DNA of 64,000 bases from Syntrophaceae bacterium (lineage in GTDB: Bacteria; Desulfobacterota; Syntrophia; Syntrophales; PHBD01). Each line of letters opens with the position of its first letter. The stretch's first letter is position 1. The notes beneath the pieces are model-generated. The model worked only from the letters and a program-made list of their open reading frames with translations. It was not told the origin of the DNA and made no database searches. The translations under genes and the position numbers were made by a program. The stretch is taken from contig JABLXX010000008.1 in NCBI GenBank assembly GCA_013177825.1, positions 124,001 to 188,000 of the forward strand, read 5' to 3'. Positions 19,432 through 23,513 of this stretch are shown here, piece after piece.

Positions 19432-22563
<3,132 letters not shown>

Positions 22564-22627
22564 GAGAATCCCTTCATTCACCGGATATGCATCGAATCGG
22601 CAGTCGCCGTCCTCCATACCCCCGAAC

Positions 22628-22663
22628 AAAAAAAACCCCGTTTCTCCTTCGAAAGAATCGGGG
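22628..22663 (-). terminator. Intrinsic terminator in the leader of the PAS kinase gene
   Basis: On the minus strand, a hairpin with CCCCG / CGGGG closing pairs and partly paired ATTCT/AGAAA, followed by eight T. It lies between the kinase promoter (22760-22787) and the kinase start (22563), about 65 bases before the start. It could stop most transcripts early (attenuation). Confidence 0.75.
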
Positions 22664-22759
22664 TCTCGGCGATCGATTCATTGGAATCACCGTCTGTATT
22701 GGAATGGACCGGAATCTGTCTGTTGCGCCCGTCGCTCCGATGTCTGGAAATCTGCCGCC

Positions 22760-22787
22760 AGTATAGCGCCCGAATCGCACAAGTCAA
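22760..22787 (-). promoter_or_regulatory. Sigma-70 type promoter of the PAS kinase gene
   Basis: Minus strand: TTGACT (22787-22782), a 16-base spacer, TATACT (22765-22760). The start of transcription would be near 22752, giving a leader of about 190 bases to the kinase ATG with the terminator inside it. Confidence 0.75.
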
Positions 22788-22859
22788 GTTCTTTGGCTGG
22801 CAACCTATCAATATTATGGTATATTAGCCCATCAGCAACATTGGGAAAGGAGACGGTTC

Positions 22860-23513
22860 TTGCGCATCCTTGTGCGTGGCGGAAGCATCCCGGCGGGCGT
22901 CGGCGTAAAGAAAAGTTACGTGGAGATCCTGAGGCATTGGGGCGCCACCCTTGGGATTGAAGTCCTGAATCGCTCACGCGCCGGCGAGAACTCCTTCGAC
23001 GCCGTCTCCACGTTCCGGGAGGACATCGAGCCCCTCGGGCCCGACATCCTGATCCTTCACTTCGGCGTGGACGACGCCTTCTTTCCGGTCTACCGATCCG
23101 AGTTCAAGGAAAACCTGGTCCGGGTGGTGCACCGGGCCCAGGCGCTCGAACCTCCCCCATCGATCCTCCTCCTGACCTCCCACCTCTGGGACGATCCCTG
23201 CGAGATGCAGGCCCTCGGCATCTATTACCGGACCATCCGGGAAGTGGCCGTGGACCTGAGCTGTACGCTGGTTCCCGTCCACACGTTCTGGGCAGGCTAC
23301 ATCGCAGACCACGGGCTGCTTCAGGCCGATCTGGTCCAGAAGGACGCCAGGCTGCCCAATGAACAGGGCCACAAGGTGTTTGCCGGGGCAGTCGCGGCTA
23401 CGCTGAACTCCCTGTCGGCAGGCCACTGGAAAAAGAACGGATGGAAGTGGACCGCCGGCTTCTCCCATGCTATGAAATGCGTCAGATTCAAAAATAATCA
23501 TAGTGGAGGATAA
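22860..23513 (+). CDS. SGNH-hydrolase-like protein with altered catalytic residues
   Basis: Cytoplasmic-looking protein of 217 residues with the SGNH/GDSL hydrolase fold pattern. The nucleophile block is RGGSIPAGVG (near residues 7-15). The third block reads HFGVDD where GxND is usual. The last block reads DARLPNEQGH where DxxHPN is usual, so the catalytic His position carries Leu. It may be inactive, or use another base. The start is TTG with AAAGGAG seven bases before. It is followed, three bases after its stop, by the DUF4412 gene. Confidence 0.7.
   Translation: MRILVRGGSIPAGVGVKKSYVEILRHWGATLGIEVLNRSRAGENSFDAVSTFREDIEPLGPDILILHFGVDDAFFPVYRSEFKENLVRVVHRAQALEPPPSILLLTSHLWDDPCEMQALGIYYRTIREVAVDLSCTLVPVHTFWAGYIADHGLLQADLVQKDARLPNEQGHKVFAGAVAATLNSLSAGHWKKNGWKWTAGFSHAMKCVRFKNNHSGG

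Follow-up and report, generated by a model that had tools for sequence, protein, structure and literature searches.

In the window, i.e. the 64,000-nucleotide stretch of Syntrophaceae bacterium DNA analyzed here, the gene of a five-PAS hybrid histidine kinase is preceded on the minus strand by a short leader ending in an intrinsic terminator, and this leader is a copy of a dispersed, apparently undescribed attenuator family, members of which are located ahead of genes. The leader carries a small open reading frame (ORF) that matters through its start codon and ribosome site, placed 18 nt before the terminator stem, a spacing that is conserved in the family. Neither this start codon nor the membership in an order-wide, multi-copy family had been seen in the sequence-only reading, which proposed a premature terminator acting on the kinase leader. 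We propose that ribosome occupancy of the leader controls the transcription of the kinase, and give this reading a probability of roughly 0.55.

The promoter of the leader consists of a -35 hexamer TTGACT (22782-22787) and a -10 hexamer TATACT (22760-22765) separated by 16 nt, a sigma-70-like arrangement (22787-22760) with 10 of 12 consensus matches. The RNA would start about 7 nt past the -10 hexamer, as judged from the sequence, and the short leader RNA predicted from the promoter and the terminator spans 22628-22753. According to our own simple gene calls, the upstream neighbour is a GDSL lipase gene (22860-23513), which is divergent to the kinase, and therefore no minus-strand gene feeds the terminator. 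The regulated gene (19432-22563, minus strand) encodes a kinase of 1043 aa and starts with the ATG at 22563, preceded by AAGGG; in addition to five PAS regions, the domain analysis detected HisKA, HATPase and receiver domains. The near-consensus promoter, the lack of a minus-strand gene upstream and the five PAS regions had all been claimed from the letters, and all three claims held. On the plus strand, a divergent promoter with an extended -10 element (TATGNTATATT) lies at 22797-22831.

The terminator (22664-22628) reads ACCCCG-ATTCTTTCGAAGGAGAA-ACGGGGT followed by eight T, with the stem-loop at 22635-22664 and the T tract at 22628-22635, as the earlier reading had it. In our own terminator scan the stem was scored at -14.6 kcal/mol, and it also formed in the RNAfold prediction of the full leader, whose overall folding energy is ordinary (z about -0.6 to -0.9). 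One standard terminator scan missed it because the loop is long. In 400 kb of the same genome, counting both strands, hairpins of about this strength or above that had T at 7 or more of 8 positions were found twice within genes versus 10 times between genes, and the chance expectation of such a hairpin is about 0.001 per 300-nt intergenic strand. This rarity indicates that the terminator of the window is not a chance hairpin. A second, short hairpin (CGGTG...CGCCG, 22667-22692, minus strand) was predicted by RNA folding directly 5' of the terminator.

We then compared the leader with those of relatives. Among 100 related genomes, an orthologous leader was found in one, the congener Deltaproteobacteria bacterium HGW-Deltaproteobacteria-19 (L133), with 71% identity, and the same congener was the sole match in a strict DNA pattern scan of the genome collection. 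The first 60 nt of the leader are 47% identical, the block 22694-22630 is 82% identical, the sequence just after this block 55%, and the coding sequence at the start of the kinase 72%. Since the identity peaks at 22694-22630 and not in the 5' part, the conserved portion is the end of the leader rather than a 5' aptamer. The block includes the short hairpin, whose stem base is kept, the leader start codon, and the terminator, whose 5' arm and loop share 16 identical nucleotides with the congener; the T tract of the congener is TTTTCTTTT. The congener also has TTGACA at the position of the -35 hexamer and TATTCT as the -10 hexamer, with a spacing of 18 nt, and retains the kinase start with its ribosome site. 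Its upstream gene is likewise divergent, but it is a different gene: the divergent promoter itself is strongly conserved, whereas the gene behind it encodes a GDSL lipase in the window and a small exported-looking protein in the congener. The conservation of promoter and hairpin, the divergent neighbour and the membership in the leader family described below together support the original reading of the leader as one with a premature terminator.

A riboswitch whose metabolite-binding domain occupies the first 60 nt would fit the leader-plus-terminator architecture. However, no Rfam family matched the window leader at its gathering score or even at permissive thresholds, in agreement with the earlier remark that the leader matches no familiar riboswitch class. 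Together with the unconserved 5' part and downstream genes that share no common pathway, this makes a riboswitch highly improbable, and we rejected it. A search for an alternative antiterminator had also been suggested. In the window and the congener alike, pairing between the 5' end of the leader and the terminator 5' arm is possible, and we looked for an antiterminator by forcing the terminator open and comparing the pairing of the 5' leader to the terminator 5' arm with that in shuffled leaders. The gain was no better than with the shuffles, which equalled the capture of the 5' arm in 32% of cases for the window and 9% for the congener, and an antiterminator made of RNA only was thus rejected.

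To find further members, we built a first covariance model (R1) from the two leader blocks of the window and the congener, which matched 50 of 80 genomes of the order. Since R1 was built on the window, its matches are biased towards it, although the window has neither the Shine-Dalgarno (SD) sequence of the family form nor a stop at codon 3, and R1 therefore did not select for either. A second model (R2) was made from 25 sequences found by R1, leaving out the window and the congener. R2 recovered both leaders, that of the congener with 39.3 bits and that of the window, at 22626-22718 (minus strand), with 45.6 bits (E=5.8e-8 in 82 kb); in a scan of its own genome the window leader was the best of five matches (E=3.0e-6). 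Reverse-strand matches to the terminator only reached just 12-17 bits, and most of the R2 score therefore comes from 5' of the stem. In a partial census that covers best matches only and in which copies within one taxonomic family are related, R2 had matches in 98 of the 119 order genomes, a single genome carrying as many as 27 copies; it also matched 18 of the other genomes sampled from the phylum, with the same layout. The covariance-model search suggested earlier thus did uncover a family, of which the window is a below-average member (45.6 bits versus 60-91 for typical copies), and Rfam 15 contains no family corresponding to it.

The layout shared by the family, as read from the R1 matches, is AACCCT...GAGGGTGCC-ATG-GAC-TGA-TTACTGAAA-CCCCGTTTCTC...GAGAGCGGGG-TTTT. 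In 66 of 87 distinct copies the distance from the start codon to the stem is exactly 18 nt; this codon is ATG in 77 of the 87 and GTG in six, and an SD-like sequence precedes it in most. None of 29 ordinary intergenic terminators of the same genome had an SD and a start codon so placed. TGA stands at codon 3 in 48 of 83 copies, and in 65 this codon ends in GA, with TAA found once and TAG never. Since 34 of the 83 members lack an in-frame stop at codon 3, the TGA does not define the family, and the NGA pattern could mean that a sequence signal rather than a stop is conserved. Selenocysteine recoding of the UGA was considered and dropped, the loop and spacing being unlike those of a SECIS element when judged by eye. 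Compared with shuffled sequences, the 24 nt leading up to the start codon are more stably folded by 1.54 +/- 0.30 kcal/mol, and the fold usually hides the SD. Furthermore, 24 of 54 copies have TTGAC at a distance of 50-150 nt upstream of the leader start codon, as the window does, compared with 10% of random windows. A second common block, TAGATTTCTNATGNAAATCGTGATAATC, was observed 60-120 nt upstream of the leader start at six loci (L237, L241, L245, L255, L262 and L276); it contains the inverted repeat GATTTC/GAAATC and is perhaps an operator or promoter common to copies with closed ORFs.

These features bear on two readings in which translation of the leader plays no part. In the first, the hairpin is a fixed partial terminator that holds kinase expression at a low, constant level, and the leader start codon is a harmless relic left by duplication of a promoter-leader unit. 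The strength of the hairpin and the failure of any antiterminator to exceed chance agree with this, as does the promoter that copies within one family have in common, as would be expected of a dispersed unit. However, the SD-like sequence and the start codon at 18 nt persist phylum-wide while their surroundings diverge, and a relic would decay, so we regard a fixed terminator as unlikely. In the second, the conserved stretch AUGGACUGAUUACUGAA and the terminator arm are bound by a protein or a small molecule, with ribosomes playing no part. Conservation does extend past the start codon, to the GA of codon 3, UUA, and GAA before the stem, and the downstream genes suggest a global regulon; on the other hand, the SD ahead of the start codon belongs to the conserved pattern. 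Moreover, the models of CsrA (PF02599) and Hfq (PF17209) were silent in both genomes (G000 and G001) and positive in control genomes, and control by either protein was rejected. A search for the tandem hexaloop pair of ANTAR targets (A1, G4, with the second loop overlapping the terminator) returned only a spurious hexaloop over the 3' arm, and the search for ANTAR domain proteins was silent, as were its controls. An RNA-binding regulator thus appears to us rather improbable, more so than the fixed terminator.

The window conforms to the family rule, with exactly 18 nt from the leader start codon ATG (22679-22681) to the first C of the stem at 22663, and its ATG..GA stretch matched the family matrix with p=1e-5 per position (6e-5 in the congener, whose start codon likewise lies 18 nt before the stem). 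Its SD stretch did not match the GAGGG-type family SD matrix (p=0.15); the variant GGTGAT (22686-22691), complementary to 16S AUCACC, is placed 4 nt 5' of the ATG. The GGTGAT:16S duplex was calculated at -9.5 kcal/mol, within the top 4% of random positions (-9.3 in the congener), and GGTGA recurs as the SD in L087, another family member of the same genome. The window has no hairpin hiding the SD (0 kcal/mol). Its codon 3 is CGA and not a stop, and the leader ORF (22574-22681, 35 codons) runs through the terminator to a stop 10 nt before the kinase start, while that of the congener has 40 codons and a stop overlapping the kinase start (ATGA). The small Arg-rich frame noticed earlier across the hairpin is hence a real ORF (22780-22574), of which the useful start is the internal ATG at 22681. 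A conserved Arg-rich peptide was rejected, as most substitutions in the congener alter the residue and the frame is shifted in the T tract by an inserted nucleotide. Outside the order, in another family, the leader ORF (MEGLRKPRFSTERRGFLF...) at L326, L334 and L321 also runs through the terminator, and its stop overlaps the start (ATGA) of a cyclase-like gene, independently of the congener.

We thus propose that ribosomes act on the terminator as follows. RNA polymerase, starting from the promoter about 105 nt upstream, would make a leader with a ribosome-binding site and a start codon, and by default would stop at the terminator to release a short RNA of about 125 nt. If a ribosome already occupies the leader start codon on arrival of the polymerase at the T tract, the leading edge of that ribosome would lie at or in the stem, the hairpin would misfold under it, and the kinase would be transcribed. 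The ORF of most copies stops immediately (AUG-GAC-UGA), and the terminating ribosome would park against the base of the stem; in the window and the congener the ORF crosses the stem and ends by the kinase start, and the same ribosome could pass on to the kinase by translational coupling. One mechanism could in this way serve both closed and open ORFs, with ribosome occupancy favouring readthrough and the relative pace of polymerase and ribosome as the presumed signal; readthrough would occur when the polymerase is slow or ribosome loading is fast. When a stop codon occupies the A site, the ribosome covers about 10 nt beyond it (PMC4824070), and past the UGA of AUG-GAC-UGA such a footprint would therefore reach the stem base, which lies 9 nt downstream. 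An intrinsic terminator that follows a stop codon within a few bases works far less well in E. coli, termination falling from about 90% to below 10%, an effect that fades with distance (PMC4824070). Terminators in the first 100 bp of E. coli coding regions work well because ribosomes arrive late (PMC4824070), so that the default is likely to be termination. Since the spacing is only 18 nt, the ribosome would need pausing of the polymerase to arrive in time, which counts against the proposed ribosome control.

Among known systems, the closest is the E. coli pyrBI operon, in which a promoter is followed by a leader ORF that runs through an intrinsic terminator, with the gene close behind. PMC4824070 cites pyrBI as a case in which a ribosome near the polymerase represses termination. 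The leader ORFs of the window (22681-22574) and the congener similarly span an intrinsic terminator. In contrast to pyrBI, the family start codon is separated from the stem by just 18 nt, the ORF of most relatives is a closed AUG-X-UGA, the module occurs up to 27 times per genome ahead of unrelated genes, and no link to pyrimidines is known, the gene downstream in the window being a sensor kinase. We take the window leader to be a ribosome-dependent, pyrBI-like attenuator, with the direction and signal of its control presumed, a likeness that we do not extend to membership of the pyrBI class. With the amino-acid leader-peptide attenuators of the trp, phe and his type the family has in common a leader ORF beside a terminator; unlike them, it has no run of control codons, its codon 2 varies, and neither the window nor the congener has an antiterminator above chance. 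The start-stop minigenes of lambda bar, also AUG-X-UGA, act through peptidyl-tRNA drop-off. The minimal ORF of most family copies is of the same form, but it has a terminator 18 nt away, whereas bar works without one. No match for start-stop attenuators was found in the open-access literature. The uORF candidates from the GIM pipeline (the ilvB motif and others) pair an intrinsic terminator in the leader with a conserved SD and conserved start and stop codons (PMC11109978), as does the family of the window; each of those belongs to one gene family in one genus (PMC11109978), whereas the present family is phylum-wide and lies before many gene families.

The gene downstream is co-directional in 70 of 73 resolved copies, while the orientation of the upstream gene is mixed; in the window the kinase is co-directional and starts 62 nt past the R2 match. 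This bears on another reading, that the unit from promoter to terminator is a gene for a trans-acting small RNA that merely lies upstream of the kinase. The transcription unit in the window, about 125 nt long and with two tandem hairpins and U8, is indeed complete, but an independent small RNA has no need of co-directional neighbours, its seed region would fall in the least conserved 5' part (47%), and no Hfq model match was obtained. We consider a small RNA gene very unlikely, and ribosome control of the terminator remains our preferred reading.

The downstream genes are diverse and belong to no single pathway, with sensor kinases being common. They encode PAS sensor proteins, acyl-CoA dehydrogenase, AMP-binding ligases, aldehyde ferredoxin oxidoreductase, acetamidase, a short-chain fatty-acid transporter, GYD proteins, TPR proteins and restriction-modification proteins; the copy at L087 precedes a second PAS hybrid kinase of the same genome, and that at L219 a GAF sigma-54 activator of the congener. 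More tentatively, and with distinctly lower confidence than in the kinase leader itself, we suggest a global regulatory system at the level of the phylum, built on one standard leader module that might be common to dozens of unrelated genes in each genome. The arrival of a ribosome at a minimal ORF, set exactly one ribosome edge ahead of an intrinsic terminator, would decide between short RNA and full mRNA, so that sensor kinases and catabolic genes would be tuned by transcription-translation coupling and not by a specific metabolite. Hundreds of leader copies with fixed geometry would amount to a widespread element of RNA control that Rfam lacks. A sharp prediction follows from the 18-nt spacing, namely that ribosomes decide termination at a minimal ORF, and closed and open ORFs within one genome offer natural test cases for transcription-translation coupling. 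The system would also bear on how slow-growing anaerobes might link the expression of many genes to their translational capacity with no dedicated ligand.

Finally, several other leaders were noted during the searches. A paralogous PAS kinase gene in each genome (L073, G000:C2; L088, G001:C87) is preceded by TTGACA, about 95 nt and a terminator, the stem of which shows compensatory changes from CCCCGCC/GGCGGGG to CCCTGCCA/TGGCAGGG. It was rejected as a sibling leader, with no R2 membership and a co-directional upstream gene, and its terminator may be an ordinary one. On contig C1 of G000 (about 84480-84880, L178), a LivJ-type binding-protein gene lies behind TTGACA, the short ORF MSTGTIQATFFFGFFSFTREVCL and a strong terminator 65 nt before the gene start; the ORF is Phe-rich, like pheL, and the leader has the look of a phenylalanine attenuator. 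Ahead of a thiM-like gene at L204 lies a TPP riboswitch-like sequence (CTGAGA...ACCTGATCCGGATAATGCCGGCGAAGGGA), which R1 matched through its terminator, and L206 (2516-2578, minus strand) gave a below-threshold match to the Guanidine-III riboswitch (25.2 bits versus a gathering score of 36). At L030 (1171-1264, plus strand), a tRNA-Sec gene lies about 240 nt upstream of a similar-looking leader-terminator.
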